Shown piece after piece: positions 8,087 to 47,785 of a stretch of 64,000 nt of DNA. Numbering within the stretch: position 1 is the stretch's first letter; the number at the start of each line of letters is the position of its first letter. This stretch comes from Clostridiales bacterium (GTDB lineage: Bacteria; Bacillota; Clostridia; Oscillospirales; Oscillospiraceae). The position numbers and the translations under genes are program-made. The notes under the pieces are model-generated. The model did no database searches, was not told the DNA's origin, and saw only the letters and a list, made by a program, of their open reading frames with translations. The stretch is taken from positions 21,964 to 85,963 of the forward strand of contig JAJPXL010000136.1 in NCBI GenBank assembly GCA_021205455.1. Reading direction: 5' to 3'.

Positions 8087-8225
8087 GGCAGATGCTCCTT
8101 TTCCTTTAATTCCGTTCCATTCTAACGCACAAGGATAAACTCAGGAACAAATAAAAAAGAACAAAGTGTGAACAAACCCGCTTTCCTTTTTCAGATTTGT
8201 TTACCTTAACGTGTCATTTTCGTGT

Positions 8226-8231
8226 TATACT
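8226..8231 (+). promoter_or_regulatory. Extended -10 (TGTTATACT) for the two-component operon
   Basis: CGTGTTATACTATG upstream of the response regulator; -35 weak. Confidence 0.4.
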
Positions 8232-8294
8232 ATGTGTATATCAGATGGCGCCCCCGCCGAGCAGCGCGGGGCGCAGGAAAGGAGATGTACCGGA

Positions 8295-8975
8295 ATGTTT
8301 CGGATTCTGGTGGTGGAGGACAATGCGGATATGCGGGAGCTGTTTTGCACCGTGCTGAATGGCAGCGGCTATCAGGCCATTCCCGCCTCTGACGGGGTGG
8401 AGGCGCTGGATATTATGGAACGGGAGTATATCGATTTGCTGATTGTGGACATTATGATGCCCCGCATGGATGGCTGCGAACTGACCCGCTCCCTCCGGGA
8501 TGCCGGGTACACCCTGCCTATCCTGATAGTAACCGCAAAGGATCAGTTCGATGATATGCAGATGGGCTTCCGGGCGGGAACGGACGATTACATGGTGAAG
8601 CCCATCGACGTCAGGGAGCTGGTGCTGCGGGTAGAGGCCCTGCTGCGGCGAGCCAGAATCTCCAGCGAGAAGCGCATCGTCATAGGCAGCACCGTCCTGG
8701 ATTACGATGCCCTGACTGTGACCCTGAACGGAAAGGAAACCACCCTCCCACAGAAGGAGTTCTATCTGCTCTACAAGCTGCTGTCCTATCCCAACAAGAT
8801 TTTCACCCGTCAGCAGCTGATGGATGAGATATGGGGGATGTTCTCTGAGACGGATGAGCGCACCATCAACACCCATATCAACCGGCTGCGGGAGCGGTTT
8901 GCCGACTGCAAGGATTTTGAGATCGTGACAGTCCGTGGGCTGGGCTATAAGGCGGTGAAAACAAGCGATGAATAA
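8295..8975 (+). CDS. OmpR-family response regulator
   Basis: MFRILVVEDNADMRELF, LLIVDIMMPRMDG, winged-helix C-terminus INTHINRLRERF...VTVRGLGYKAV. ATG at 8295 has upstream GGAG. Confidence 0.93.
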   Translation: MFRILVVEDNADMRELFCTVLNGSGYQAIPASDGVEALDIMEREYIDLLIVDIMMPRMDGCELTRSLRDAGYTLPILIVTAKDQFDDMQMGFRAGTDDYMVKPIDVRELVLRVEALLRRARISSEKRIVIGSTVLDYDALTVTLNGKETTLPQKEFYLLYKLLSYPNKIFTRQQLMDEIWGMFSETDERTINTHINRLRERFADCKDFEIVTVRGLGYKAVKTSDE

Positions 8976-10008
8976 ACGGCCACATTCCCAATTATGGTTT
9001 TGCCTGACCGGCTGCGTGTTCGGGGTGGTCCTGAGCGGCGCCATAGTTATGCTGCTGATTTGGTACCTCCTGTTCCACTTTCAGGTCATCACAGTCAATC
9101 CGATTGAACAGCACATCCCGTTCGTTATCATCCTGCCGGGCAGCGCTGTGGTTGGGAGCTGTATCACATGGCTGGTGGGGCGGCTCATCATCCGCCCGAT
9201 TCAGGGCATCAGCCACGCCTTTGAACGGCTGTCCCAGGGGGATTTCTCCGTTCGTGTCCCCACGGACAGCAGGGTGGTGGAAATCCGTGAGATGTCGGAG
9301 GAGTTCAACGCGATGGTCTACGACCTGTCCCACATCGAGACGCTGCGCAGCGATTTTGTGGTGAACGTCTCCCATGAGTTCAAAACCCCCATCGCCGCCA
9401 TCGAGGGCTACGCCATGCTCCTCCAGATGGAGGGCCTTGACAGGGAGCGCCATGACTACTATGTGGAGAAAATCACCGCAAACTCCCGTCGGTTGTCCGA
9501 GCTCTCCAGCAACATCCTCGCCCTCTCCAAGCTGGAAAATCAGGAAACGGTGCTCCGCCGGAAGGAGTATCGCCTGGATGAGCAGCTCCGCCGGGCCGTC
9601 CTGCTGCTGGAGAACAAGTGGTCCGCGAAGCAAATCGAGTTCGACATTGAATTGCCCAACGAAACCTTCAACGGGAATGAACCGCTTCTGGACCAAGTGT
9701 GGTCCAACCTCCTGGACAACGCCATCAAGCATTCCCCGGAGGGGGGAATCATCCAGGTGACGCTCCTGTCAGACAGCGCCTCCGTTACGGTCTCCGTCAC
9801 AGACCACGGCGACGGTATGTCGGAGGACGTTCAGAAGCACATCTTTGAGAAGTTCTACCAGGGGGACCGTTCCCGCTCCTCCGAGGGAAACGGCCTGGGG
9901 CTGGCGCTGGTCAAGCGCATCGTGGAGCTGTGTCACGGCTCCGTGGAGGTGAACAGCGCCCCGGGCGAGGGCGCCACCTTCCGGGTCACCCTTCCCCGCG
10001 AGCCGTGA
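8968..10008 (+). CDS. HAMP-containing sensor histidine kinase
   Basis: VNVSHEFKTPIAAIEGYA (H-box), DNAIKHSPEGG, GDGMSEDVQKHIFEKFYQGD, GNGLGLALVKRIVE; overlaps the regulator gene. Confidence 0.93.
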   Translation: MNKRPHSQLWFCLTGCVFGVVLSGAIVMLLIWYLLFHFQVITVNPIEQHIPFVIILPGSAVVGSCITWLVGRLIIRPIQGISHAFERLSQGDFSVRVPTDSRVVEIREMSEEFNAMVYDLSHIETLRSDFVVNVSHEFKTPIAAIEGYAMLLQMEGLDRERHDYYVEKITANSRRLSELSSNILALSKLENQETVLRRKEYRLDEQLRRAVLLLENKWSAKQIEFDIELPNETFNGNEPLLDQVWSNLLDNAIKHSPEGGIIQVTLLSDSASVTVSVTDHGDGMSEDVQKHIFEKFYQGDRSRSSEGNGLGLALVKRIVELCHGSVEVNSAPGEGATFRVTLPREP

Positions 10009-15436: not shown

Positions 15437-17134
15437 TCACATCCGGCTCAGCACCTCGTCCACCTTGGCGTCATACTTCTCCTGGGAGATATAACCGCTG
15501 TCCAGCAGCTTTTTCAGCGTCCCCAGGACTGCCATCGGGTCGTCCTGGGCAGGCTGCGCGCTGCTTTCGGCAGCATCCGGCTTCCCCGGCGTGACCGGTG
15601 CGGCGGCCCCCAGCACGGTGGCTCCCGGTGCGGTACCTTGAAGCGCGTCTCTGGTCATGTCAACCACGCTGCCCATGGCGCCCAGGGTAACACCCAGGCT
15701 GGCGATATCCCCAAGGGCGCTTCCGCCGCCGGAGCCGCCGGTGATGCCGTTCTGCATGGCCTCCAGCCCCACCTGGCGGGCGGTCTCCTGCTGATAGGTA
15801 TAGCCCTTCATCCGCATTTCCTCCGCCTCGGCGGCAGCCTTGAGGCGGTACGCCTCCGCTTCGGCCTGAGCGCCGATGAGCTGGGCCTGGGCCTTCGTCT
15901 CGGATTCCGTCAGAATGCGGCCCCTGGCAGCCTCCGCCGTCGCCTGGCCCACCTGTTCACGCCTGACACCCAGGTATTGCTGGGCATACAGCTCCTTCAT
16001 CTCCATGTACTGCTTATGCATGGGATCTGACGGATCGTCCTCCGGCGTGACAAAGCGCATGATGTGGAACCCTGACACGGTCAGGCCATAGTCCACAAGG
16101 GACACATTGATGATTTCCTGCAGGGCGTCGGAAATCTCCTTCATGTGCTCGTCCAGCTCCAGCACGCTGATGGATTGCTGCCGAATCACCTTGGCCAGGT
16201 AATCCTTAACGCACTCCACAACAGGACCGCGGAAATACTCCGACATATTGGTGGGTGCGGAGTGATACAGGTTCTGATGCTGCGCCGACCCCTGCGGCTC
16301 CTGGAGGGATTGCCCCATAATCAGGCCGGAGGAGGTACCCACCAGCTTTAACAGGATGCGCTTGGAGTCGATGACCCGAATATTAAACTCTCCGCTGGCA
16401 CCGATGGCGACATGCATCCCAGAGCTGGGGTCAAACAGCCGCGTCTTGGAATCCGTTCCCCACTTGATGCCCATTTGGGTGGTCAGGTTGATGAAGTAAA
16501 CCTCCGCATGGAAGGGCGTCCGTCCCGCACCGACAGGGAGCGGGTACCGCTTATTCATTTCGGGGAGGTTCTGCGTCTCCAGCGTGTAACGGTCGGCGGG
16601 AAACACATCCAGCGCCTGCCCGTCGCGGAAGAACACCGCCTCCTGGCCTTCATGTACAATCAACTGCGCCCCGGTTTGGAAGTTCTCAATGGGGTGCTTC
16701 CAGACGAAGGTGTGATTGTCCCCTTTATACTCGATGATGCTGACAGCCGCCTCGCTGGCGTAGCGCTGCTTCGCCAGCTCACGCTGGACGTCAATCCTGC
16801 AATCGCAGATGGGGCAGCTGTAGGACCTGGTCCCCGCCTCTGCGTTCAGCTTGACGCCGCATTGTGGGCACTGGAAGCTGACCATCTTCAGCCCGGACGC
16901 AGGGGCGATGCTGGCCTTACAGACCGGACACCTGGGGTTCTTCTTGCTCTGGTCGTAGACGATAGAATTTCGGCAGGAAGGACATACAATGGAAGTCATA
17001 CGCTCCGCGTGGATGTCGATTTTCGTGCCGCAGCGGCAGGTAACCCGATTCCGGAACAGCCCCCGCAGCCCATTATAAGCGGTGACGTAATTGCCGCATT
17101 GCGGGCATTCGATAGCAAATTGACCCATAATCAT
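15437..17134 (-). CDS. Multi-zinc-ribbon SPFH-domain protein (YdjI/virion-core-like) with C-terminal SHOCT-like domain
   Basis: Repeated CxxC pairs in the N-terminus; AEVYFINLTTQMGIKWGT; AQLIGAQAEAEAYRLKAAAEAEEM; DPMAVLGTLKKLLDSGYISQEKYDAKVDEVLSRM. Confidence 0.85.
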   Translation of the reverse strand: MIMGQFAIECPQCGNYVTAYNGLRGLFRNRVTCRCGTKIDIHAERMTSIVCPSCRNSIVYDQSKKNPRCPVCKASIAPASGLKMVSFQCPQCGVKLNAEAGTRSYSCPICDCRIDVQRELAKQRYASEAAVSIIEYKGDNHTFVWKHPIENFQTGAQLIVHEGQEAVFFRDGQALDVFPADRYTLETQNLPEMNKRYPLPVGAGRTPFHAEVYFINLTTQMGIKWGTDSKTRLFDPSSGMHVAIGASGEFNIRVIDSKRILLKLVGTSSGLIMGQSLQEPQGSAQHQNLYHSAPTNMSEYFRGPVVECVKDYLAKVIRQQSISVLELDEHMKEISDALQEIINVSLVDYGLTVSGFHIMRFVTPEDDPSDPMHKQYMEMKELYAQQYLGVRREQVGQATAEAARGRILTESETKAQAQLIGAQAEAEAYRLKAAAEAEEMRMKGYTYQQETARQVGLEAMQNGITGGSGGGSALGDIASLGVTLGAMGSVVDMTRDALQGTAPGATVLGAAAPVTPGKPDAAESSAQPAQDDPMAVLGTLKKLLDSGYISQEKYDAKVDEVLSRM

Positions 17135-33044: not shown

Positions 33045-35006
33045 TCAATCCTGCGGGTCGCTGACCAGCTTCCAAAAGGGCATATCCTGAATGGAGATCA
33101 GCGGCGCGTTCCCGATTTTCACGATGCTCTGATGCTTCTCCAGCGCCTTGATCTGGTGGAAGATACGCTCCGTCTCCGCCGGGACGGCGTCCGTCTGGAA
33201 CACAAACTCCACATCGGAGCGCTTCAGGTCCGCCACGTTGTGGACGGCCCAGGTCAGGATATACTTGGAGTAATCATCGGAACCTGTGCCGAAATGGGTC
33301 AGGAACTGGGTGGAGAGGATGGTGCCAACGCCAAACTCCCGGCCCTCCTTCAGAATCTTTTTCAGCGCGGGGAAGTTCTGGGACATGAAGTTGTCCGCCT
33401 CATCCACCAAAATCAGCTTCTTCAGCTGGCGGTACCGCTTGTCCATCCTGCTGGAACCGGAGTTTTGCATCTGGGAATAGAACAAATCCAGCGTGATGGC
33501 CACAATCAGGTTCTGAATATCGGCGTCATATCCGGAGAGGTCAAGGACGACTACGCCGTTCAGCAGCGCAAACAGGGACTTCGTCCGCTCTGGGCTGTCC
33601 TCAAAAATCTGGAATTGGAACAGCTTTTCCATGACCGCATAGAGGGAGTCGTTCTTCTTGATATCATCGTTGGCGCAGTACACGTCGTACACCTGAGAGA
33701 AGGTGGGCGCGGGCCGCTTCCAGGTGGTAGGGTCCCCCGGTACAATGCCGCAGTTCTGATACGCCTGAATGATGCAGCGCAGCAGGGACGCGGACTGCTT
33801 GGGGCCCAGGCCGTAAATCTTCGCGATGGTATCGGTGAAGGTGTTGGCGATATGAATCGGCAGCTGGGGCTTCGGCCGGATCTCCGTCAGGGAGAAGGGG
33901 TTGAAGGGCAGCCGATACGCCTTCAGGATGCGGGCATGGGTGGCCCGCACAAAGCCCGGCTTGCTCTCGTTATAATCCCCTTTGTAGTCAAAAATCAGGA
34001 TGCCCAGCCTCTGACCGTCAAAATTGTTGTGCTGCTGACGGTAGAGCTGCGTGACAAGGGACTTGGTGAACTGGGTCTTGCCGGTGCCCATGGTGCCAAT
34101 GATTCCCATATTCGTGTGAAAGACCTGCTCCGTGTCATTGGGGCACCAGTATACCGGCTCCTGGGTCTCCGTGCTCTCCCCCAGCAGAATCTGCATGGAG
34201 CGGGGCACGTCGGAGCTGTCGTTCTCCTCCTGCAAGGGCGCCGGTTCCTCCTCCGAGGATGCAGACGCTTCCTCCTCTGGGGGTGCAGTCGCTTCCTCCG
34301 CGGCAAACCAGTCCGCCTCCGTGACCGGAGCGCTTTGCAGCGGGTCCTCCGGCGTCGGCTCCGGTTCCTCAGTGGGCGTTTCCTCCGTATCGGACGCCGC
34401 CTCTGTATCAGGCCCTTCCTCTGCCCCGTCTGTCTGCTTTAATTTGCAGAGCAGCACCTGACAGTGCGCGCACATCCCCTTGGACGCGGCGTATTCATAA
34501 CAGTCGCAGGAGTAGTCCGCAACCTCATCGCTGCCCAGGATGTGCAGCCTGGGATGGTGGACAAAGCCAAAATCGCAGAACACCCTGGCCGCCGCGTAAC
34601 GGCCGAACGCGTCTTGGCGGTCCTCCTCAATCTGCACCTGCTCCATGGGAATCGGCTGGAACAGCCGGCCCGTTCCGGCAGCCGCGCCCTGTCCGCTGTG
34701 CTTTTCAAAGATGATCTCCCGGTCATCGCCATAGGCTGCAATGGCAAGGGCGGCGCAATGGGAACAGAAGCCGGAAGCGCCGTTGCCTTCATAGCAGTCA
34801 CAGGTGTAATCGGTCACCACATTCGCGTCCCTCAGCTCCACCACATTGATCCTGGGATGGTGGACAAAGCCAAAGCTGCAGAACACCTTGCCCTGCACCT
34901 CTGCCGCGGTGTCGCCGAGATGCTGCCGGGTCGTCACGGCAACCTGCTCGTTTTGAACAAACTCTCTGCCCTTCTGCCGAATCGCATTGGACAATAATTC
35001 GCGCAT
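33045..35006 (-). CDS. HerA-like P-loop ATPase with two N-terminal SWIM-type zinc fingers
   Basis: CDCYEGNGASGFCSHC and CDCYEYAASKGMCAHC (CxCxnCxH); Walker A IGTMGTGKTQFTKSL; GILIFDYKGDYNES; Walker B KLILVDEADNFM. Confidence 0.85.
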   Translation of the reverse strand: MRELLSNAIRQKGREFVQNEQVAVTTRQHLGDTAAEVQGKVFCSFGFVHHPRINVVELRDANVVTDYTCDCYEGNGASGFCSHCAALAIAAYGDDREIIFEKHSGQGAAAGTGRLFQPIPMEQVQIEEDRQDAFGRYAAARVFCDFGFVHHPRLHILGSDEVADYSCDCYEYAASKGMCAHCQVLLCKLKQTDGAEEGPDTEAASDTEETPTEEPEPTPEDPLQSAPVTEADWFAAEEATAPPEEEASASSEEEPAPLQEENDSSDVPRSMQILLGESTETQEPVYWCPNDTEQVFHTNMGIIGTMGTGKTQFTKSLVTQLYRQQHNNFDGQRLGILIFDYKGDYNESKPGFVRATHARILKAYRLPFNPFSLTEIRPKPQLPIHIANTFTDTIAKIYGLGPKQSASLLRCIIQAYQNCGIVPGDPTTWKRPAPTFSQVYDVYCANDDIKKNDSLYAVMEKLFQFQIFEDSPERTKSLFALLNGVVVLDLSGYDADIQNLIVAITLDLFYSQMQNSGSSRMDKRYRQLKKLILVDEADNFMSQNFPALKKILKEGREFGVGTILSTQFLTHFGTGSDDYSKYILTWAVHNVADLKRSDVEFVFQTDAVPAETERIFHQIKALEKHQSIVKIGNAPLISIQDMPFWKLVSDPQD

Positions 35007-35020
35007 TGATAGTCACCTCT

Positions 35021-36082
35021 CTAATCTGCGTTGAACTGGTACTGCTCCAGGTAGCTCAGCCGCTCGCTGCTCGTCATATCCTTCGGGTCCTTTTGGGCCT
35101 TGGCCTGCGCATCGGAGGTCGTGCTGGCGGGGGTTCCAAGCGCTGCCACACCCTGCGCGAGCAGCACGGCGCCGCCGGTGGGCTGGGGCCGATGGAGCAC
35201 CTCCAAAATATCCAGGACGGTGTCCTGGTCCAGGGCAATGGAGACGTCCAGCTTCTGATACTCGCTGCGCTCCCCCTGGTGAACCAGCTCCATCTTCAGC
35301 AGGAACAGGAAGTCTGACAGGCAGCGGTAGGACAGGCCATCGGTCTGCTCCGCCAAATCGTCCACAGACAGACCGGACACGGAGAGCTTGATATCCTTGT
35401 TCAGCCCGCTTCCGGGGCTTCGCCAGTCCGGAACGCTGTAGCTCAGCCCGGCTTGCAGGAATTTCTTCCTCTGCCGCAGTCCCGGATTCTCGCAGGAGCA
35501 GCAAAGCAGCTCCGGGAACAGGCTGGAATTATACAGGGAGGAATCCTCTGTGATACAGATGAGGAAGCACTCCTTGGCGCATCCCATGCTGTCCGAATAC
35601 TCCCCCACGGCTTCTCCGATGGCGTTCAACACGAGCTGTACGTTGCCGTACTGCTCCATCTGGTCGAACAGCAGGACGCAGTATTCCGCAGAGCCATCCT
35701 TAATCAACGCTTCCGCGTGCGCAAACACCGCGTTCACCCGTCCCACCGTTTCCTTCGACGCCTGCCCCTCTGGAAACGCCTGGGCCTGGACATACGCATA
35801 GCAAGCCTTGTCTTCCGGAATGTCGCGCTTCCGCCAAAGCGAATTGAGCAGCGCCTTGGCCAGGGTGTGCTTCCCGTTGCCAGGCGGGCCGGAAAACAGC
35901 ACCCCCGGATAGTTTTTCAGCTGAAAATACTGGTACAGGAACTGATCGTTCAGCCCCTCCAACACGGGCTTCCAGAAATAGGTGTCGGGCAGCTCTGACA
36001 GCGTAATATCGTCACAGGAAGGATCATAAAATACATTTTCTGCCCACTCCTGGCACAGACGTGCCTGCTCCGCCTGCTCCAT
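35021..36082 (-). CDS. AAA ATPase
   Basis: FSGPPGNGKHTLAKALL Walker A; YCVLLFDQMEQYG Walker B-like. Confidence 0.8.
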   Translation of the reverse strand: MEQAEQARLCQEWAENVFYDPSCDDITLSELPDTYFWKPVLEGLNDQFLYQYFQLKNYPGVLFSGPPGNGKHTLAKALLNSLWRKRDIPEDKACYAYVQAQAFPEGQASKETVGRVNAVFAHAEALIKDGSAEYCVLLFDQMEQYGNVQLVLNAIGEAVGEYSDSMGCAKECFLICITEDSSLYNSSLFPELLCCSCENPGLRQRKKFLQAGLSYSVPDWRSPGSGLNKDIKLSVSGLSVDDLAEQTDGLSYRCLSDFLFLLKMELVHQGERSEYQKLDVSIALDQDTVLDILEVLHRPQPTGGAVLLAQGVAALGTPASTTSDAQAKAQKDPKDMTSSERLSYLEQYQFNAD

Positions 36083-36105: not shown

Positions 36106-37365
36106 TCAAAGGGTACGCATCTGCTCTTCAAACTCGTTCAGCGAACGCTCAATGTCGTCCTTGGGGGACGGCACATAGGAGGCTTTGGCGGTCTCAAACA
36201 GCTCCCGCGTCAGCCGGAAGGAGCCGTCCTGTAACCGTGCGACGGCGCTCTCCCCATCGGCGCAGCCCTCCGCAACGGAGGTGCGAATCAGATTCAGCAG
36301 CTTCGTGCTGACCCGATTGATGTCCCGCTGATTATAGCACTCGGTGCAGTCCGCCATGTCGCTCCAGTCGAAGCCGTCCTCCAGCTGAATGATGTCTCCA
36401 AACTTATTGCGGAAGGCGTGGGCGCGGGCGGCCTGGTCGGGCAGCGGGATCTGCACCAGCTCCACCCGGTCCAGCATGGCCGTGTCCACATTCGCGGGAT
36501 AGTTGGTGGCGCCGATGAAGATGACGGACTTCTTCTCCTTGTTGGCCTTCTGGAGCTGGTTAAAGCTGGTCAAGAAGGTGGTCGTCAGCTGCATATTAAA
36601 GTCAGAGAGGTTTGCAATGGAGCGATTCTGGCAGATGCCGTCCACCTCGTCCATGAACAGGATGCAGGGCGCGTTCTTGGTCGCCTCTTCAAAGGCCCGC
36701 CGGACGATTTTATCCGCCTCGCCGGAGAACTTGCTGTGAATGTCCGCCGTGGCCAGGGACATATACTTATAGCCCTGCTGCATCAGCTCGTGGGCAAATG
36801 CCTCGATGATAAAGGTCTTCCCGCAGCCGGGAGGGCCGTAGAAGAAAAAGGACTGGACGGTGGGCATCCCCAGATAGTCATTCAGGGCGTTCATGGAGAC
36901 ATCCCGTACGCAGTCGGACAGCAGCTTCTTCACATTGTCCATGCCGGCCACTTCTTCAAAACCATATCCGGGGTCCGGCTTGAACCACTTCTCCACCGTT
37001 GCATCGGAAATATCTTCCTTTGCGGCAGCCTTCTTCTTTGCTGCGGGCTTGGCGGGGGCAGGTTTCTGCTCCTCCTCCGGTTCGTCGGGCTCCGCAGGCG
37101 CAGCCTCGGCCTCGGTCTCCTCCTCCGGAAACAGGTCCTTCCAAATCTCCCGCATTTTATCCTGGCACATGGTCTGGCAACGCATCCAGCGCTGCGCCTC
37201 CGCGCCGGTGGTCAGCGTGGCCAGCTGGCCGCAGATCTGGGCGGCCCGCTGATAGTTCAGCCCCTCTTCCCGGCTGGCCTCCTTCTTCATGCTTCGGATG
37301 GTTTCCGCCTCATAGACGTAGGCGCGGTATTCATTATTTAAGCGATTGATCGTTCTAATGTTCAT
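36106..37365 (-). CDS. Classical AAA+ ATPase, Vps4/meiotic-clade-like, with helical N-terminal domain
   Basis: FFFYGPPGCGKTFIIEAFAHEL, ADIHSKFSGEADKIVRRAFEEATKNAPCILFMDEVDGI, IGATNYPANVDTAMLDR; start MNIRTINRLNN. Confidence 0.88.
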   Translation of the reverse strand: MNIRTINRLNNEYRAYVYEAETIRSMKKEASREEGLNYQRAAQICGQLATLTTGAEAQRWMRCQTMCQDKMREIWKDLFPEEETEAEAAPAEPDEPEEEQKPAPAKPAAKKKAAAKEDISDATVEKWFKPDPGYGFEEVAGMDNVKKLLSDCVRDVSMNALNDYLGMPTVQSFFFYGPPGCGKTFIIEAFAHELMQQGYKYMSLATADIHSKFSGEADKIVRRAFEEATKNAPCILFMDEVDGICQNRSIANLSDFNMQLTTTFLTSFNQLQKANKEKKSVIFIGATNYPANVDTAMLDRVELVQIPLPDQAARAHAFRNKFGDIIQLEDGFDWSDMADCTECYNQRDINRVSTKLLNLIRTSVAEGCADGESAVARLQDGSFRLTRELFETAKASYVPSPKDDIERSLNEFEEQMRTL

Positions 37366-37404
37366 AATTCCCTCCTGCGGCACCGGATGCCCTCTCTGTC
37401 AGGC

Positions 37405-38064
37405 TCAACGCCTGCCGGCCCGGTTTTTGAGAATCTGCTCTTCATCGCTGGTGATTTTCTTATCATCGGGGGGCGTTTCAAAGTTGATGCCGCCCATGTC
37501 CGCAGCGCCAGCGCCTGTCACATTCGTCTGCTCCATGCACTCTTTGATGCTGTAGCCCTGAATCACCCGCTCGACGAACCGCTCATCCACCAGCTCCGCA
37601 CGGCTGGAAAAGGTGATGGGCTCCATCGTATCGTCAAACTCCATGCCCGTGTTCTCCCGCAGCTCCTTCTTGGTCAGGGAGGTGCTGCTGGCGTTCATGC
37701 GGTACATCTGGCGGAGAATCTTCTCCAGGTTCCGCATGGCATAGTCCATATCCTTTGCGGAGCTGATGGAGCTCAGGTCCAGCTTGGCCTCCTCCACAGC
37801 CAGCAGGCCGATGATGGCGTCATGGATGCGCTCCTTTTCCATGGCATCGCTGACGCGGGCTTCCCTTCGGCGCAGCACGTTCAGCCGGCCGGAATCCACC
37901 GTGTGCTGGAAGAACAGCCTGCACTCCTCCAGCTGTGCGGCGTATGCCGCAATGGTCTGGGCGTGCTCCTGCCGCTGGCGAATCTGTTTTACGGTCTTGT
38001 CAACAAAGGCGTCCTCAGGGCTGCGCTTGGAAAAAATTTTCGGCATATTCGGCATTTTCGTCAT
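37405..38064 (-). CDS. Helical 219 aa protein, candidate ESCRT-III-like substrate of the adjacent AAA+
   Basis: Basic N-terminus KIFSKRSPEDAFVDKTVKQIRQRQ then long predicted helices; no family recognised with certainty. Confidence 0.55.
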   Translation of the reverse strand: MTKMPNMPKIFSKRSPEDAFVDKTVKQIRQRQEHAQTIAAYAAQLEECRLFFQHTVDSGRLNVLRRREARVSDAMEKERIHDAIIGLLAVEEAKLDLSSISSAKDMDYAMRNLEKILRQMYRMNASSTSLTKKELRENTGMEFDDTMEPITFSSRAELVDERFVERVIQGYSIKECMEQTNVTGAGAADMGGINFETPPDDKKITSDEEQILKNRAGRR

Positions 38065-38089: not shown

Positions 38090-39358
38090 TCAGGTGTTGT
38101 AATTGTACTGCTCGTTAACGGCTTCGTTTTCTTCCGTATTCTCATTCAGTTCCGTGTCGAAGTTGATATCGAAATTCGTCGTCTGGTTCGTCTCCGTATT
38201 CTCCAGGACGGCGCGGTTCTTCCGCATCTCTTCCAGCTGCTCCGTTCTGCGTCGGGCGATCTGCTCGGAAATGGTGTCCACGGAGTAATCCTCCTCCTGG
38301 ACCTTCTCCATCCACGCCAGCATATTGCTGCGGATGGCCACCGCATCCTCGCCGTTCAGGACGCTCTTCCGGGCCGCGGCATACTTCACCGCAGCATCGG
38401 ACATCTCCCTGGCCACCGCGTACTGGGCTGCCAGGTGGGCGACCTGCTCATCCAGCAGGGCGATATACTGGGCATTGATGGTCTCGTCATAGACCACCGG
38501 CTGCTCGTTCAAAGCGATACGGAAGGTTTCCGCCTTCTGATAGGCCGTCAAAAGCTGCACCTTGTTGCCGGCTGTGATGTCCTTCTGCTGGTCAATGGCA
38601 TACGCCATGTTGGCGTAGACGCCCAGCTCATCGTCGAACGCCCTCTCCTCGGCGGTGAGCCGGTCATTCTGGTCCACATGGGCTTTCAGCCTGCCGTAGA
38701 GCCGCTGACCTTCCTCCGTCTCCTGCATCTCCTTGAGGCGCTTTTTAAACGCCTCCACCTGCTTCCACTTTTCATCGACCAGGGCATCCGCGGCACGGAT
38801 GGTCTTTTCCAGGTTGTCGATCTCCTCATAGGTGTGGATGATGTTGTCGTACTTTTCCATATACTTGACCCGGGCCGCCAAAATCTGCTCCTTGCGGTCC
38901 TCCTGATCCTCAGGAATGTTGTCCCTCAGGAACAGGACGCCCGCACTGAGGGCGTTCATAGCCCACTCCGCCTTGTTGGGGGAGCCGTCCTCTACGGCGG
39001 TCTTCCATGCCCGGGCCGCATAGAGCAGCACCCGGTCAATGCCCTCAATTTGGTCAAAAATCGTGGGGGCGTTGTCGATTTTCTTCAGAATCGCGTTGCG
39101 GGTCATCTCCATATCGCCGCAGGGCTGATTCTCATTGCTCTTCGTATCCGGCAGCTGGCCCTGGGCAAACTGGATGCTGCGCAGCGTGCTGACGATTTCC
39201 TCGCCTTTGCTCCGGTTCTCGCTCATAACGGCGGCAGGGGATTCCTCCTTCTGCGGCGCCAGGCCCACAGCGACCTTCACGTCTTCGATCACCTTGCCTA
39301 CCCCGCTGGCAGATGAACGGGATGCGGTCCGCTTCTTGTTTTTTCCCGTAAATGGCAT
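38090..39358 (-). CDS. Helical/coiled-coil orphan protein (422 aa)
   Basis: Long K/E-rich helical translation, Asn/Glu-rich C-tail (NETTEENEAVNEQYNYNT-like); spacing consistent with the operon. Confidence 0.6.
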   Translation of the reverse strand: MPFTGKNKKRTASRSSASGVGKVIEDVKVAVGLAPQKEESPAAVMSENRSKGEEIVSTLRSIQFAQGQLPDTKSNENQPCGDMEMTRNAILKKIDNAPTIFDQIEGIDRVLLYAARAWKTAVEDGSPNKAEWAMNALSAGVLFLRDNIPEDQEDRKEQILAARVKYMEKYDNIIHTYEEIDNLEKTIRAADALVDEKWKQVEAFKKRLKEMQETEEGQRLYGRLKAHVDQNDRLTAEERAFDDELGVYANMAYAIDQQKDITAGNKVQLLTAYQKAETFRIALNEQPVVYDETINAQYIALLDEQVAHLAAQYAVAREMSDAAVKYAAARKSVLNGEDAVAIRSNMLAWMEKVQEEDYSVDTISEQIARRRTEQLEEMRKNRAVLENTETNQTTNFDINFDTELNENTEENEAVNEQYNYNT

Positions 39359-39430: not shown

Positions 39431-41035
39431 CTACCTCCTGTTGGCGCGTTCCTCCAGGATGCGGCTGGCTGTTTCACTGTCTAACTCGGAGGCTGCGTCG
39501 TGCGCCGCCGGTTGGACGCTCTCCAGGAGCGTTTGCAGGGTATCGGTCAGGTCGATGTTGCCGGTCTCCGAAACGGTCTGATACTCCGTGTCGGCGTTCT
39601 CCAGCGCGATTCCATAGCTGTACAGCTGGCCCTGCACTGCAGTAACTGCGTCCGTGCCGGAGGACTTGATGCGCAGGTACTCCCTGTATTTGTCAAAATA
39701 TCCGTCCGAGACTATGAGGTACCGCTCGCAGCCCTCACAGTACTGGTCGAACTCCCCCTTGGTATAGAGGTTGTTCCCACAATACAGCAGCACATTGACC
39801 GTGCGCCGCACCGTCCAATGGTCGCCGCGGTTCTCCGCCCGCTTCATGCGCACCACAAATTTGTCGATCCAGCGGATGCGCGTCCTGGGCAGCGGGTGGT
39901 TCCGCGCCTTCAAAAGGCTCTGCTGCATGGCGTCCCATTCCCCCTCCGAGGCCTCCCGGATCTGGAACGGCGACGTTCCCTTTCGGTAGGCCCACTCAGG
40001 CCAGGGCAACTCAGCCAGGGCGGACAGCTCCGGCTCCGCAAACACAACGTGGCTTTCCTGCAAGGGGTAATCCTTGGGCAGCGGCCCAAACTGACGCACC
40101 AGAATGTCGATCAGCCGCTCCGACTCGTTCTTATTCCTGGCGGAGCGCCGCAGGCGCTGGATGCGCTCCTCCATCGCCGTGATGCCGTTGTCGCAGAGGC
40201 AGCGGAACAGGGCCGCATAGGTGATCGGCTGCTTCAGGGCGGAAAACAGGCCCTGGCAATAGGCCCGCAGACCGGGCTTGTACGTCCAGAAGTAGAGGAA
40301 ATTGGTATAGTCCAGCAGGGTTCCTTCGTCCCAGGCCTCATCCCGGGCAAAGCGGACATTCCCCATCAGCGTTTTCAACCCGTCAAACGTGAAGGTGCCC
40401 AGCTCAAGGAACTGATCCCCAATCTTCTCCCGCAGCCGGTCGAAGAAGCACAGATTCTCCTTATCCAACAGCAGCTCCCGGGCGTTCCTGCAAAGGCTCT
40501 GGCCGGTTTCACTGTCCGCATAGGCCAGGACACTGCCCGGCCCGGTGTACAGGGCCAGCACCTCTTCCGTCATCTCCATCGGGCCGACCAGGACGATGGT
40601 ATCCCGACAGCTGTGAAACCGCTGTATCAACCTGTCCAGCAGCCGGGCCTTCGAGGGATAATCCGGCTGGAACAGCCGGGCAAATGCCTCCATGCGGAAC
40701 ACGAATGCGGATTCCCCGTTCTTCCTTCCCAGCTCCTTCACCAGCCACTGGACGGCCTTCTCCTGGTCCAAATCAATACAGACCTGCCCCTGAAAGTCGG
40801 GCTTGAACCAAAGGCTTCTGGCATAGTACTGGTGATAGCTGTCCGCATCCAACAGGGTCAGCTTCATCTGGCTGCCCACCGCGTCCAGGAAGTAGGTATA
40901 GCGATACCCGCTCCGGCGCAGGGAAAGCCGAAGCCAATCGTCCAGCTTCAGCTGGAGCGTACTGTCCAGAAAGTAGGTCTCGCCCTCGTGCTGGAACACG
41001 AAATACAGCTGTTTATGTGTGGAAAACAAACGCAC
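39431..41035 (-). CDS. Orphan 534 aa protein
   Basis: Long ORF in the co-directional array; no recognisable motif. Confidence 0.6.
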   Translation of the reverse strand: MRLFSTHKQLYFVFQHEGETYFLDSTLQLKLDDWLRLSLRRSGYRYTYFLDAVGSQMKLTLLDADSYHQYYARSLWFKPDFQGQVCIDLDQEKAVQWLVKELGRKNGESAFVFRMEAFARLFQPDYPSKARLLDRLIQRFHSCRDTIVLVGPMEMTEEVLALYTGPGSVLAYADSETGQSLCRNARELLLDKENLCFFDRLREKIGDQFLELGTFTFDGLKTLMGNVRFARDEAWDEGTLLDYTNFLYFWTYKPGLRAYCQGLFSALKQPITYAALFRCLCDNGITAMEERIQRLRRSARNKNESERLIDILVRQFGPLPKDYPLQESHVVFAEPELSALAELPWPEWAYRKGTSPFQIREASEGEWDAMQQSLLKARNHPLPRTRIRWIDKFVVRMKRAENRGDHWTVRRTVNVLLYCGNNLYTKGEFDQYCEGCERYLIVSDGYFDKYREYLRIKSSGTDAVTAVQGQLYSYGIALENADTEYQTVSETGNIDLTDTLQTLLESVQPAAHDAASELDSETASRILEERANRR

Positions 41036-41065: not shown

Positions 41066-41557
41066 TTATTCCACGCCCACCAGGGAAATCGGAGCAGACA
41101 TGGTTTGCTTCTGGCCGTTGCGCAGCAGTACGCTGACCCTGAGCCGCTCCTGGAGCCGGAGGCCAACCTGCTGAAGCCCCGGCTCTTTCAGGTTGGGGAC
41201 GGAAACGCTGATTTCCTTCCGGGCGCCGCCCTTCTCCGTCACCAGCGTCAGGGAAAGATCGTCCCCTTCGGGGTTGCGGGCAAACTCCTGGTCGCACCAT
41301 ACCTCGCCCTGCTCCAGCTCAGTCCCGCTGGCAAAGAGCTGACACGCCGTTTCATCCAAAACCAGCTGCTCCCCGCTGGCCTTCCAGCGGAAGCAGAGCA
41401 CCCCCAGCTTCATGTCCTTCAAGTACTCTTTCCGGTACTGGTTGGCGTAGTCCATCAGGGGCGCGTTGTCATCGCCGATGACGCTGACCTCCGGAAAATG
41501 GCAGTATGGGCACTCCGTATCCACATAGCTGCCCCCGCATACAATACAAGTTTTCAT
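41066..41557 (-). CDS. Small zinc-ribbon protein
   Basis: MKTCIVCGGSYVDTECPYCHFPEV (two CxxC). Confidence 0.65.
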   Translation of the reverse strand: MKTCIVCGGSYVDTECPYCHFPEVSVIGDDNAPLMDYANQYRKEYLKDMKLGVLCFRWKASGEQLVLDETACQLFASGTELEQGEVWCDQEFARNPEGDDLSLTLVTEKGGARKEISVSVPNLKEPGLQQVGLRLQERLRVSVLLRNGQKQTMSAPISLVGVE

Positions 41558-41584
41558 CGAATCTTCCGCCTTCCTCACCATGCT

Positions 41585-43396
41585 TTAATGGCTGCTTACC
41601 TTTTCCTGGTAGCTTTTGATGGCCTGCCGCGCCTCCGAGAGGGTGCGCTCCGCCTGATTCATCTCATCCTGCAATCCCTTTGCCAGCGAGAACGGCTTCC
41701 GGTCAAAGAACCTGCTGTCCTCCTCCAGCCGCTTCACAATCACATTCATCGCGGACAGGCGCGTTTGCAGGCTTGCCAGCTCGGTTTCCTTTTGGGTCAT
41801 GCCCTGGAACTCCAGCTCCAGCTGCTGATAGTCCTCAACGGCCTTCTGCTGGCGGGCCTGCGCCTCCGCCTGCCGCTCTGCCAGCAGCGCCCGCTGCTGC
41901 TCCTGCGCCTCGTTCTCCCGCTGCAGTCGGCTGATTTCCTGGTTCATTTGTTCGCAGTCCTTTATCCTGCGCTGCAAATCCGCCTGCTGCTGTGCCAGGG
42001 TGGCCTGGATCTTGTCCTCATTCTTCTGCTCCAGGGAGGCGTTCAACGCCTCTACCTCCGCCGTCATCTGCCTGGTCTTGTTGTCCACCGCCTGGATGGA
42101 GCGCAGCATACTCTCTTTTTTCGTTTTGACTGCGTCCAGCGCATCGTCGGCCTTCCGGTATGCGGCCTCTGCCTCGGCAAGGGCCTGGCGCTCCGCCTCG
42201 CTCTCCCGGAGCTTGCACGCAATGCCCTCCTGCAGCTCCGCCTGCTTCTTCCGGCTCTCCTCCACATCCTGGGTATGCAGCTCCAGCTGAGCGTTCAGCT
42301 CGGGCAAGACTGCGCTCTCCAGCCTCACGCGTTCCGCTTCCTGCACGTCCACCTGCGCTCGAAGGTCGGCTTCCATCTGCCGCAGGGCGTCGTTCTCCTG
42401 TCTGAGCGTATCCGCCCGATCGCCATATTGACGGTTCTTCTGTTCCAGCGCCGGATTCCCATGCTCCAGGCTGGCGATTTCCGCGACAAGCTCCTGCGTG
42501 CGGGTTTGCAGCGTCTCCTTCTCGTTTTTCAGCTGCTCCGCAAGGGGCGCCTTTTCCGCAAGGAGGGCCGCCTGCGCCTCCTTCTGACAGGTGAAGTGGT
42601 CAATGGCGGTGCAGGTCTCCTGATACGTCTGCTCCACCTCCGCCAGGGACGTTTGCAGCGCCGCAAGCTCGGCCTGCTGCCCCTCCAGCGCATCCTGATG
42701 CTGCCGGAGCTTCTGCGTCTCGGCAGCCAACGCCGCATTGCCTTCCGCAAGCGTCTGAATCTCCGACTGCAAGGCCGCAATATCGGCCTGGCTGGCTGCC
42801 CTGGCGCTGTCCAGCGCCTGCCGCTGGCCGGTAAGCTGCTCCCGGGTGGTTTGCAGCTCCTGCACAGATTCCTCCAGGGCGCGATTCTCCGCCCGCAGTC
42901 CTTCCAGGTCCAGCTGACGCAGGCTGTCCAGCTGAGCCGTCAGCGCCTGCCGCTCCGTTTGCAGGCGTTCGGCATCCTGCCGGCGCGTCTGCAATCGCTG
43001 GAGTTCCGCCCGGAGCTCTGCCACTTCCGCCTCCAGCTCTGCGGCGGCGGCCGCCTCCTGCTCCAGCTTTCCCTGCTCCTGCTCATAGGCGCTCACCTTC
43101 TGCTGGAGCGCCTGGGTGCGTTCCTGAAGCCGACGGTAGCGGGATTCGGCGGAAAGGGCCTGGGCATTGTTCTTTTCAATTTTGACAGGCAAATTGCACA
43201 GCCAAATCAGCTTGCTGGTCAGCTCATCGGAATCGCCCACCGGGCTGGTTTCTATCTTCTGTTGCGCCTTCTTTACGTCCAGCTCCAGATTTTGGAACAT
43301 CCCCAACAGCTCGTTCAGCGTCAGGTCGTCCCGGTCTCGGAATTTTTGAATGTCACTGCTGACGTTATCAAATCTCATAGATGGCTCCTCCTGCAT
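41585..43396 (-). CDS. Long coiled-coil protein (about 600 aa)
   Basis: Continuous heptad-rich E/Q/L/A sequence from about residue 85 to 590. Confidence 0.75.
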   Translation of the reverse strand: MQEEPSMRFDNVSSDIQKFRDRDDLTLNELLGMFQNLELDVKKAQQKIETSPVGDSDELTSKLIWLCNLPVKIEKNNAQALSAESRYRRLQERTQALQQKVSAYEQEQGKLEQEAAAAAELEAEVAELRAELQRLQTRRQDAERLQTERQALTAQLDSLRQLDLEGLRAENRALEESVQELQTTREQLTGQRQALDSARAASQADIAALQSEIQTLAEGNAALAAETQKLRQHQDALEGQQAELAALQTSLAEVEQTYQETCTAIDHFTCQKEAQAALLAEKAPLAEQLKNEKETLQTRTQELVAEIASLEHGNPALEQKNRQYGDRADTLRQENDALRQMEADLRAQVDVQEAERVRLESAVLPELNAQLELHTQDVEESRKKQAELQEGIACKLRESEAERQALAEAEAAYRKADDALDAVKTKKESMLRSIQAVDNKTRQMTAEVEALNASLEQKNEDKIQATLAQQQADLQRRIKDCEQMNQEISRLQRENEAQEQQRALLAERQAEAQARQQKAVEDYQQLELEFQGMTQKETELASLQTRLSAMNVIVKRLEEDSRFFDRKPFSLAKGLQDEMNQAERTLSEARQAIKSYQEKVSSH

Positions 43397-43428: not shown

Positions 43429-45195
43429 CTATGTCCCACTCTCCGTGACAAACTTGGCCTCCGTCAGGCCAAACATCTTGTTATAATCGGACAGTTCAAT
43501 GGGGATGGTATGCCCCACAGACCTGGTCGTCGGCTCATAGTACTGCACCAGCATGGATACGATTTCAGACTCATCCATGGTAAAGCCGATGTGATGGAGC
43601 GGCTTTGAATACTTGTTGGGGAACTGCCGCTGATACTCATCCGTCATGTCCTGGTACGCCTTTATGATTTTATCCTGCATCGTGGGGGTCAGCGGCAGGA
43701 TGGTACCGGCGTGGGCGTCCTCATCCGTGCCGATCGACAGGTGCGTGATCGCGCTGGCGCCGTTTACGAAGGACGTGGGCGTTCCGGCGCTGCCGGACGC
43801 GCCGGATTGGCCGCAAATCCAGTACTCGTGTTTTGGAATCAGCTCCTGCCGGAAATTGATGGCGTAATGGAAGCGCTTATCCGTTTCGGTATAAATGCCG
43901 ATGCCATAGGGCGCTGTGCGCTTGATGGTCATAATGCCGGAGGCCAGCAGGGCCGCCCCCATGGAGACCGCGTATTCCCGGTCCTTCCCCAGGCTGTACT
44001 GGAACCGGCGGTCCCCGGTCCGGGAACGCTCAAAGTACCATTCCACCTGCTTTTGCACCAGGATAAACTTTCCGAATCCGCCAGCCAGCACCACATAGAA
44101 GTCGGGCTTGTTATGCTTCTTCGTCCAGGCCGTGACCTCTTTCATGCACTTTTCCAGCGTCGGGGCGATGATTTCATTATACGCCTGCATGAGGTGGGCA
44201 AAGGTGACGATGACCGGCTTTCTGCCATAGCGGATTTTGGCGAATTGCTCCGTATTGTCCAGCAAGTCGGTCAGCTCCGCGCCGCACTCCTCCACCGCAT
44301 ACCAGAGGCGTTTTTGGTTGTCGCTGCTGGAGTCCTTGCCGTTCTCTCCTCCGGCGTCCAGGGAGACCTGATCCATCAGCTTATTTTCCAGGGAGCTGAC
44401 CGCCTTCCGAAAGCTGGCATTCTTCGGAATGGCATCCGCATCGCCCCCCGTCGCCTCCGCGATGGCGAGCTGCATCACCCGCTCCATATACGCGATACCG
44501 GCATTTCCGATTTTGCCGTTTTCATTTTCCCCAAAGCCGGTACGGTACAGCACCTTAATTTCCACAGAGGCGCCCTGGGAATGCACCTCTGTCAGGGTCA
44601 AATCCAGCGTGCCGCCGCCGTAGTCGATAATGAGGAGGCGATAGCTCTGGGGCGCCGTCTCCCGATACCGGTAGGCGAAATACGCGCTGGCCGCCGCCGG
44701 CTCGCTGACCACATTCACATTCCTGACCTCCGGGATGCTGTCACAAATATCCCGCAGGATGGTGCGCCCGTCCATCTGCCCGTGCCGGACGGCGTTCTGG
44801 GTCGTCCACACCTCCGGCGCGCAGATGACAAGGTTCTCGATTTCAGAGGCCGCGTGATTGCTCAGAATCCTGTGAATCTGCTGCTGGAGGAACGCCCCCG
44901 CCACCCGCTTGGGGGTGTACTCCGCCGAATAATTCCGGCTGCTGAGGATGCGCTGGTCCTGTTCGTTCAGCAGCATTTTGAACGCGGAGAAGGAAAGCGC
45001 CTCCGGGTCCTCCAGCTGGATATGGGCTTTGGCGCTGTATCCGGTCAGGAGGTTGCCGTCATCGTCAATGCAGGCAACAGAGGGGATCGCCTCAGGGTCC
45101 TTCTCCCCCGGTTTGCACAATTCGATTTTTTTCTCAATCTCGTCATAAAACGAAAAGCTGGAATAAGTACTGCCAAAATCAACGCCCAGGTTCAT
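43429..45195 (-). CDS. Hsp70/actin-fold ATPase with divergent C-terminal domain
   Basis: MNLGVDFGSTYSSFSFYD, NVVSEPAAASAYFAYRY, LLIIDYGGGTLDLTLTEV, YVVLAGGFGKFILVQKQVE; likely start at CAT 45193-45195. Confidence 0.85.
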   Translation of the reverse strand: MNLGVDFGSTYSSFSFYDEIEKKIELCKPGEKDPEAIPSVACIDDDGNLLTGYSAKAHIQLEDPEALSFSAFKMLLNEQDQRILSSRNYSAEYTPKRVAGAFLQQQIHRILSNHAASEIENLVICAPEVWTTQNAVRHGQMDGRTILRDICDSIPEVRNVNVVSEPAAASAYFAYRYRETAPQSYRLLIIDYGGGTLDLTLTEVHSQGASVEIKVLYRTGFGENENGKIGNAGIAYMERVMQLAIAEATGGDADAIPKNASFRKAVSSLENKLMDQVSLDAGGENGKDSSSDNQKRLWYAVEECGAELTDLLDNTEQFAKIRYGRKPVIVTFAHLMQAYNEIIAPTLEKCMKEVTAWTKKHNKPDFYVVLAGGFGKFILVQKQVEWYFERSRTGDRRFQYSLGKDREYAVSMGAALLASGIMTIKRTAPYGIGIYTETDKRFHYAINFRQELIPKHEYWICGQSGASGSAGTPTSFVNGASAITHLSIGTDEDAHAGTILPLTPTMQDKIIKAYQDMTDEYQRQFPNKYSKPLHHIGFTMDESEIVSMLVQYYEPTTRSVGHTIPIELSDYNKMFGLTEAKFVTESGT

Positions 45196-45435: not shown

Positions 45436-46581
45436 CTAGCCCGTCACATTGCACTGACCGAACTGATTGCTTCCCACGGCCACCATTGTGCCGTCGGATC
45501 GCAGCCCCACCGTATGGTTATCCCCGGCGGCCACGGCTACGATATCCGTCCAGCCTTCCACATTGCACTGACCAAAGCTGTTGTCCCCCACGGCCACCGC
45601 TCTGCCGTCAGACCGCAGGCCCACCGTGTACTCATCCCCGGCGGCCACTGCCAGAATGTCCGTCCAATCCTTCACATCGCATTGGTCACGGTTATTGTCT
45701 CCCACGGCCACAACGGTGCCGTCAAACCGCAGCCCCACCGTGTGGTTATCCCCGGCGGCTACGGCCACGATGTTGGTCCAACTGACCACGCTGCACTGAC
45801 CATAGAAGGCGCCTCCCACGGCGGTCACCGTGCCGTCGCACCGCAGCCCAACCGTGTGATGGTATCCGGCGGCTACGGCGGCCATCTCTGTCCAGCCGCC
45901 TACGCTGCACTGGCCGAAGGTGTTCCGCCCCACGGCTACCACGGTGCCGCCGGGCCGCAGGCCCACCGTGTGGTTGGCACCGGCGGTCACAGCAATGATA
46001 TTGGTCCAGCGCTGCACGTTGCACTGGCCATCGTCGTTCTCCCCCACGGCCGCAACGGTGCCGTCAGAACGCAGGCCCACAATATAACTGTCCCCGGCGG
46101 ACACTCCGATAATGTCCTTCCAGGACTTTACGCTATACTGGTCAAAGCGGTTATCCCCCGCCACAGCCACGGTTCCGTCCTCCCGTATGGCAATCGTCGT
46201 CTGCCTTCCGCAGGCAATTACGGAGCCGCGGCAAAAGCCCTTGCCGGCCTCCCCGCTCGCCGGCTGGTACCATTGGGGTTCCGTCCTGAACCGCGGCGCC
46301 CATCTGAGCCCTGCCGGTGTGTGGCAATTCGTGCAGATATGCTGCCGCAGCTTCGTGGAGACGTAGAAGGTCACGCCGCCGCAGGTGGGGCAGGTCAGCG
46401 CCCCCGGCACCAGCTTCCGCTGCCAGTCCGCAGTTAGGGCGGACACCGGCCTGGCCCCGGCAGGAAGAGGCGCGGTCAGCGTCCCATAGCGCTCATAGTC
46501 GCGGCTGCGGTCATAACCGCATTTGGGGCAAACCCACGGGTCGGAGCATTCCGCCCGGCAGACTGGACAAATCCATACCAT
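45436..46581 (-). CDS. Zinc-ribbon RCC1-type 7-blade beta-propeller protein A
   Basis: CPVCRAECSDPWVCPKCG, second CxxC pair, then seven 38-aa units AVAAGDNHTVGLRSDGTVVAVGxNxxGQCNVxxWTDI. Confidence 0.9.
   Translation of the reverse strand: MVWICPVCRAECSDPWVCPKCGYDRSRDYERYGTLTAPLPAGARPVSALTADWQRKLVPGALTCPTCGGVTFYVSTKLRQHICTNCHTPAGLRWAPRFRTEPQWYQPASGEAGKGFCRGSVIACGRQTTIAIREDGTVAVAGDNRFDQYSVKSWKDIIGVSAGDSYIVGLRSDGTVAAVGENDDGQCNVQRWTNIIAVTAGANHTVGLRPGGTVVAVGRNTFGQCSVGGWTEMAAVAAGYHHTVGLRCDGTVTAVGGAFYGQCSVVSWTNIVAVAAGDNHTVGLRFDGTVVAVGDNNRDQCDVKDWTDILAVAAGDEYTVGLRSDGRAVAVGDNSFGQCNVEGWTDIVAVAAGDNHTVGLRSDGTMVAVGSNQFGQCNVTG
45439..46228 (-). repeat. Seven 114-bp RCC1 repeat units
   Basis: 38-aa periodicity counted in the translation. 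Confidence 0.9.
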
Positions 46582-46609
46582 TGTGTTCTTCCTCTTTCAT
46601 TGGGTGCGG

Positions 46610-47785
46610 TCAGGGTTGGGGCTCCGGAAAGGCGATATTGCGCCACTGCTTCACATTGCACTGGCCGCTCTGGTTTGCCCCTGCGGCGACCACCGTACCA
46701 TCCGCCCGCAGCCCTACCGTATGATTGGCCCCGGCCGCTACCGCGACCATATTTTTCCAGCCGGTTACGCTGCACTGGCCTTTGTTCTTCTCACCCACGG
46801 CGACCACAGTGCCATCGGATTTCAGCCCTACCGTATGCAGTTCCCCGGCGGACACGGCAACGATATTTGCCCAGCCCTGCACATTGCGTTGCCCCCGCTC
46901 GTTTTTTCCTGCGGTAACCACTGTGCCATCGATACGCAGGCCAACCGTATGATACACCCCGGCGGCCACCGCCGCGACATCATGCCAGTCATCCACATTG
47001 CTCTGCCCATAGAAGTTCGTCCCCACAGCGACCACTCTATGGTCTGCCCGCAGCCCCACCGTATGGTCGCCTCCGGCAGCCACCGCAATGATATTGGTCC
47101 AGTCGCCCACATTACACTGTCCGTCTCCGTTGCCGCCCACGGCCACAACGGTACCGTCCGCTTTCAGCCCTACCGTGTGCCAGCGTCCGGCGGCGATAGC
47201 GATGATGTCCGTCCAGCTGCCTACCTCACATTGACCGCTCCAGTTGCTCCCTGTAGCTACAACGGTTCCGTCAGAGCGCAACCCCACCGTGTGATTGCCG
47301 CCGACGGCCACCGCGATCAGATTCTTCCAGCTTTCCACCCTGCACTGTCCAAAGCGGTTATTGCCCGCCGCAACACACGTTCCGTCAGCTAAGACGGCTG
47401 CGGTGGTATCTGCCCCGCAGGCAAGCGTAGCACAGCTGCGTGGGACGATGAGAGGCTTTGCAGCGGAGGTGCCAGCAGTAATATGGTTCGCCCGAGGCTC
47501 CTGCACCAGCGGTACCGCTTTGCGGCAGCGGGTGCAAATCAGCTGCCCCAACTGCACAGAGTAGTAAAACGTCGTGCTGCCGCAGTCGGGGCAGGCCAGC
47601 GCCCCAGGCACCAGCTTCCGCTGCCAGTCCGCGGCCAGGGCGGGCACCGGCTTGGCCCCGGCAGGAAGAGGCGCGGTCAGCGTCCCATAGCGCTCATAGT
47701 CACAGGTACAGTCAAAGCCGCATTCCTTACAAAAGCTCCCACCACCACCGTTTTCGGCATGGCACACAGGGCAAGTCCACGTCAT
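46610..47785 (-). CDS. Zinc-ribbon RCC1-type 7-blade beta-propeller protein B
   Basis: CPVCHAENGGGGSFCKECG, second CxxC pair, seven 38-aa RCC1 units. Confidence 0.9.
   Translation of the reverse strand: MTWTCPVCHAENGGGGSFCKECGFDCTCDYERYGTLTAPLPAGAKPVPALAADWQRKLVPGALACPDCGSTTFYYSVQLGQLICTRCRKAVPLVQEPRANHITAGTSAAKPLIVPRSCATLACGADTTAAVLADGTCVAAGNNRFGQCRVESWKNLIAVAVGGNHTVGLRSDGTVVATGSNWSGQCEVGSWTDIIAIAAGRWHTVGLKADGTVVAVGGNGDGQCNVGDWTNIIAVAAGGDHTVGLRADHRVVAVGTNFYGQSNVDDWHDVAAVAAGVYHTVGLRIDGTVVTAGKNERGQRNVQGWANIVAVSAGELHTVGLKSDGTVVAVGEKNKGQCSVTGWKNMVAVAAGANHTVGLRADGTVVAAGANQSGQCNVKQWRNIAFPEPQP
46637..47434 (-). repeat. Seven 114-bp RCC1 repeat units
   Basis: 38-aa periodicity counted in the translation. 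Confidence 0.9.

Follow-up and report, generated by a model that had tools for sequence, protein, structure and literature searches.

According to a survey of ESCRT evolution (PMC10936438), many components of the ESCRT machinery have homologs in archaea but not in bacteria, with the exception of PspA/Vipp1, the ancestral relatives of ESCRT-III. In another study (PMC11237479), transfers of Vps4-like AAA proteins to bacteria are reported, and bacterial PspA is described as adjoining a double-AAA protein whose N-terminal copy is inactive. Other HerA systems and other HSP70 systems have been placed in defence or stress contexts (PMC10853773, PMC7159879).

The locus analysed here lies in a 64,000-nucleotide stretch of a clostridial genome (the window), located on contig 60 of a 2.67 Mb assembly of 175 contigs. 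As in ESCRT-III/Vps4 (CdvB/CdvC), a helical protein of about 220 aa (E219) is encoded next to a single-cassette AAA+ ATPase (AAA1) with a three-helix N-domain, a linker and a C-terminal helix. Unlike in ESCRT-III/Vps4, E219 has no significant sequence or fold match, AAA1 appears to fall outside the Vps4 clade and has no evident beta-domain insertion, and the operon adds a second AAA protein (AAA2), an Hsp70-like protein and HerA. PspA/Vipp1 and their AAA+ partners likewise combine a bacterial helical protein with AAA domains, one of them degenerate, and some E219 proteins have an MGIFSR-like start; however, E219 is not a PspA by Pfam or hhalign, the genome itself gives no PspA_IM30 match, and the two AAA proteins are separate. 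The operon resembles ESCRT in layout; kinship with or membership in that family is neither shown nor excluded. A bacterial pair made up of a helical partner and an AAA protein in MIT-AAA layout would count either as a remote ESCRT relative or as a convergent case, and the pair is small enough for in vitro testing. No description of the combination of an Hsp70-like protein, an AAA pair and a DptH-type HerA was found in full-text searches of an open-access library, although an earlier description is possible.

Operon layout and the proposed action of AAA1

A preliminary description of the window had proposed that the AAA+ gene and the gene preceding it encode a bacterial ESCRT-III/Vps4-like pair. 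Both genes, as well as every peptide quoted there, were found (Table 1). The ORF of AAA1 spans 36106–37383 on the minus strand (425 aa from a GTG codon), but the ortholog alignment starts at the ATG at 37365, so that the protein is probably 419 aa long.

Table 1. Features of the operon and its components in the window (positions of the whole stretch)
Feature	Position	Strand	Basis or remark
AAA1, single-cassette AAA+ ATPase, 419 aa	36106..37365	-	PF00004 E = 4e-29; AF2 pLDDT 85; 18 orthologs aligned
AAA1 N-domain, three helices, MIT-like size/topology	37126..37365	-	AF2 model
AAA1 C-terminal helix, residues 403–418	36112..36159	-	AF2 model
E219, 219 aa helical protein, always directly upstream of AAA1	37405..38064	-	ORF, alignment, AF2, gene order
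E219 N-terminal IFSKR, residues 10–14	38023..38037	-	aligns with ortholog MGLFSR/MGIFNK/MAFFSK
E219 long helix 1, residues 16–68	37861..38019	-	AF2 model
E219 helices 2 (74–98) and 3 (103–124)	37693..37845	-	AF2 model
E219 C-terminal tail helix, residues 206–217	37414..37449	-	AF2 model
p422, 422 aa helical protein	38090..39358	-	precedes E219 directly in 20/20 loci; frequently duplicated
AAA2, AAA protein with degenerate sites	35021..36082	-	Walker A GPPGNGKHT, Walker B LLFDQ
SWIM-like zinc-binding region and HerA ATPase	33045..35006	-	identity of the ATPase to DptH up to 50%
p534, conserved operon protein	39431..41035	-	no family match
ZnR171, zinc-ribbon protein	41066..41581	-	sequence and gene-order table
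CC603, long coiled-coil protein	41585..43396	-	family searches, iterated profiles
Hsp70-like (actin-fold) protein	43429..45195	-	PF00012 E = 6e-7; heads core operon in many loci
ZnA/ZnB, two zinc-ribbon and RCC1-repeat proteins	45436..47785	-	conserved YxxY(P/G/A)TL motif

Based on ORF calls and iterated profiles, the common gene order is Hsp70-like, CC603, ZnR171, p534, p422 (one or two copies), E219, AAA1 and AAA2, usually with HerA, placed either at the 3′ end of the operon or directly before the Hsp70-like gene. A second order (CC, p422, E219, AAA1, AAA2, Hsp70, ZnR) is carried by loci L049 and L053. The p422-E219-AAA1 block is contiguous in 20 of 20 loci across both gene orders, its genes being separated by 0–24 nt or overlapping by 1–4 nt, with the exception of L051, in which the ORF calls divide E219. 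AAA1 directly follows E219 in all 20 loci that hold both genes (gaps of at most 24 nt, 4-nt overlaps in three), and AAA1 and AAA2 are adjacent in 17 loci. The adjacency of E219 and AAA1 is not a product of chance; however, it is compatible with any stable complex, and the linkage extends to AAA2, HerA and Hsp70. The pair is part of a larger system of 8–10 genes, which was absent from the preliminary description. With its Hsp70-like protein, its AAA pair, of which one member is degenerate, and its DptH-type HerA, the operon has the look of a multi-gene system.

The explanation that we tentatively favour is that AAA1, with AAA2, remodels an E219/p422 helical assembly inside a larger, probably defence- or stress-related machine. 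AAA1 would be an AAA+ ATPase that threads its substrate; its three-helix N-domain, carried on a flexible linker, may dock a helical partner consisting of E219 and, probably, the adjoining p422. From this putative E219/p422 assembly AAA1 would pull subunits, most likely in concert with AAA2, whose hydrolysis is probably impaired, following a logic like that of ESCRT-III/Vps4 inside a larger Hsp70-like/coiled-coil/HerA machine. The whole would probably serve defence or envelope stress, possibly in contact with the membrane. The gene linkage, the predicted domain architecture and the degenerate AAA2 motifs are established; the action of AAA1 on an E219/p422 assembly is suggested by the architecture and the tight gene linkage, and the defence or stress setting by the DptH-like HerA, the rarity of the system and its variable repeat proteins. 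The proposed disassembly of E219/p422 is supported by the constant p422-E219-AAA1 block, kept across both gene orders, by the frequent AAA1-AAA2 adjacency, by the modelled layout of AAA1 with its pore-loop aromatics and intact Walker motifs, and by the matched E219 and AAA1 subgroups, the N-terminal motif and the tail helix of E219. It is doubtful that the operon encodes an ESCRT-III/Vps4-like machine of bacteria separate from PspA/Vipp1, in which E219/p422 membrane polymers would be disassembled by AAA1 and AAA2 via the MIT-like domain, coupled to the Hsp70-like protein and HerA.

Accessory genes, distribution and a possible defence role

The HerA protein (653 aa) contains SWIM-like regions, and its ATPase is 48–50% identical to DptH of DndFGH, to which other HerA/FtsK capture systems are related (PMC10853773). 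In contrast to DndFGH, the operon places HerA beside Hsp70, AAA and E219 genes, and PADLOC searches with nine core proteins returned no DndF/DndG match. As in NTP-dependent conflict systems with HSP70 (PMC7159879), an Hsp70-like protein and zinc ribbons occur in a single operon; here, however, the place of DO-GTPases or MoxR-vWA is taken by an AAA pair and HerA.

Across 85k prokaryote species genomes, scanned with the Hsp70-like protein as a query, about 29 clostridial loci (L038–L066) were obtained, mostly from gut and rumen Oscillospiraceae, Lachnospiraceae and Ruminococcus MAGs. The operon is presumably carried by about 28 clostridial genomes in a patchy spread. The E219 profile found its own genome alone among 391 genomes of the class and 399 of the phylum, as did a single-sequence search among 101 genomes of the family; the system is rare. 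No copies of E219 were found in viral, phage or plasmid sequences. In an empty-site comparison with one genome of the same genus, the flank gene had no ortholog there.

A possible, albeit rather unlikely, alternative to remodelling is that the operon, with its Hsp70, AAA and HerA components, acts against invaders or stress; E219 would then serve as an adaptor or scaffold recruiting AAA1 to clients and not as a polymer that is taken apart. The identity of HerA to DptH and the rare, patchy occurrence agree with this possibility, as do the 5′-end genes for variable zinc-ribbon/repeat proteins, the kinase downstream in L043, the vWA protein and kinase in L060, and the HSP70-bearing bacterial conflict systems on record (PMC7159879). 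Against it, no nuclease or toxin domain was seen in the operon core, the PADLOC matches of the core are confined to AAA/HerA/coiled-coil proteins, apart from a weak one between the Hsp70-like protein and Csx20, E219 lacks mobile-element copies, and one locus (L057) adjoins rpoB/rpoC-like genes, which is not an obvious island.

ZnA (45436–46581) and ZnB (46610–47785) both combine a zinc ribbon, RCC1 repeats and the YxxY(P/G/A)TL motif. Their relatives in L038–L040, L042, L045, L048, L051, L054, L056 and L065 keep the ribbon and the motif, while the remainder is exchanged for LRR-like or other repeats or for TM segments. Proteins of this type may be clients of the system or receptors for it. Downstream of the operon in L060 (L115, about 4900–9760), a vWA protein and a protein kinase are encoded along with zinc-ribbon proteins, and a protein kinase is encoded downstream in L043 (L114, 2274–4154); these flank genes recall TerY-type triads. 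In the window, an SPFH/Band-7 protein with an N-terminal zinc-binding region is encoded at 15437–17134, within a zinc-ribbon gene group that lies about 20 kb from the operon.

AAA1 and E219 in comparison with Vps4 and ESCRT-III

It is improbable that the operon encodes a homologous bacterial ESCRT-III/Vps4 pair, in which the ancestry of E219 would lie in the ESCRT-III/PspA superfamily and that of AAA1 in the Vps4 lineage. Regarding the architecture of AAA1, the preliminary description was borne out: the protein has one AAA cassette with intact Walker A/B motifs and, in the AF2 model, an N-domain of MIT-like size and layout (helices 3–27, 32–51 and 55–78; pLDDT about 90), a disordered linker (83–116) and, after the cassette, a C-terminal helix like those of the meiotic clade. 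AAA1 thus has a predicted MIT-AAA architecture. The Foldseek matches of the model are p97 and katanin cassettes, and the pore-loop aromatic position (SKF, SRY, SYV) is present in 15 of 18 AAA1 proteins.

The Vps4-like affinity that had been suggested was not recovered. In a maximum-likelihood tree of small sampling, with AAA1 on a long branch and the reference sequences confirmed in part, AAA1 forms a separate clade (100/100) and is absent from the group that unites Vps4, katanin and spastin (97/92), which would place AAA1 outside the meiotic clade. The NCBIfam scores of AAA1 (CDC48, 110 bits; CdvC, 106; PAN, 94) are all far under the cut-offs, the CDC48 score slightly exceeding that of CdvC, for which the curated cut-off is 650 bits. 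Agreement with PDB chains was established for the reference sequences of VPS4B, Snf7, CHMP3 and the archaeal MIT; the other references used were CHMP4B, CHMP2A, CHMP1B, CHMP6, IST1, PspA, spastin, katanin, PAN and FtsH.

Searches with the N-domain alone against Pfam (PF04212), PDB profiles and hhalign gave no significant MIT match. Nevertheless, the alignment of the full AAA1 profile with VPS4B begins at residue 6 and runs in register through the MIT domain, each helix lying on its counterpart; the profile scores 159 bits against full-length VPS4B versus 144 against its cassette, about 15 bits coming from the MIT part. In an HMM rank test, six of eight MIT sequences ranked in the top 1.3–5% of 2288 helical 80-mers, whereas the MIT domains of spastin and yeast Vps4 did not. 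These comparisons offer a hint, not proof, of MIT kinship.

E219 proved to be an all-helical protein, as had been described, with mean pLDDT of 72 and pTM of 0.63 in an AF2 model built from 19 sequences; at this moderate confidence, helix 1 spans 53 residues and helices 2 and 3 span 25 and 22, and further short helices lead to a disordered tail closing with a helix. The modelled lengths of helices 1 and 2 are unlike the alpha1-alpha2 hairpin of ESCRT-III folds, the comparison by which the earlier proposal was to be checked, and Foldseek gave no match at E ≤ 0.001. The best match is the ESCRT-III protein CdvB2 (E = 0.44), and 7 of the 50 matches listed are ESCRT-III chains (TM 0.19–0.34), interleaved with translin and designed bundles.

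No family match of E219 was found in Pfam, NCBIfam, PADLOC or PHROGs; Snf7 and PspA_IM30 are absent among the 25 Pfam families listed for 19 members (E ≤ 10), and the genome itself has no match to PF03357 (Snf7) or PF04012 (PspA_IM30). PDB profile searches with E219, the AAA1 N-domain and p422 returned chance helical matches only, and HMM rank tests gave no ESCRT-III signal for E219. By hhalign, E219 reached P of 0.03–0.4 against CHMP/Snf7/PspA, and neither E219 to Snf7 nor the N-domain to MIT was matched; the positive controls failed too (ESCRT-III vs. PspA, 0.18; vs. IST1, 0.24), so that these tests lack the power to settle a remote kinship of E219 with ESCRT-III. The possibility that E219 and p422 are paralogs was rejected (A2 vs. 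A5, P = 0.21).

The N-termini of E219 subgroups A and B (MGLFSRAK, MSIFSRAN, MGIFNKK, MAFFSKK, KIFSKRS) carry a CHMP/PspA-like start of the MG-[LI]F-[SN]-[KR] type, which is absent in subgroup C. A regular expression written post hoc, and hence descriptive, fits 10 of 19 aligned sequences compared with 18 of 625 background ORFs (2.9%); E219 of L053, trimmed in that alignment, fits with its full N-terminus. The tails vary by subgroup as well, ending in DDLMSSSLFG, in ILRKNxxKR or, in C, in several variants. The same three subgroups are found in E219 and AAA1, as expected of any co-inherited pair. Of the proposed Snf7/CHMP likeness of E219, the N-terminal motif holds in two subgroups; no profile match was found, and the moderate-confidence model shows no hairpin of equal long helices. 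The pair keeps its ESCRT-III/Vps4-like layout and strict gene coupling, but the E219 profiles, Foldseek and the AAA1 tree give no significant sign of kinship.

AAA2 and the distant tandem-AAA proteins

Instead of GKT/S, the Walker A motif of AAA2 reads GxxGxG[KRQ][HR]: the Lys is replaced by R/Q in several orthologs and the Thr/Ser in all examined. AAA2 of the window has His at the Thr/Ser position and DQ for DE (Glu to Gln) in Walker B, and, judged by these motifs, is probably hydrolysis-impaired. This degeneracy and the frequent AAA1-AAA2 adjacency could also mean that a heteromeric unfoldase with AAA2 is the only working form of AAA1 and that E219 is an unrelated operon subunit, which is improbable, as the adjacency and overlapping starts of E219 and AAA1 are equally tight.

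Two distantly related loci, L067 of Thiocapsa and L036 of G538, encode an Hsp70-like protein, a coiled coil, a radical-SAM-type protein and a tandem-AAA protein; no E219-like gene was found in either. An origin of AAA1 and AAA2 from these tandem-AAA proteins was rejected, their cassettes being of the GVLFIDEA type with intact motifs. The only part that the tandem-AAA proteins have in common with the operon is a p534-like N-terminal stretch of ~46 aa.
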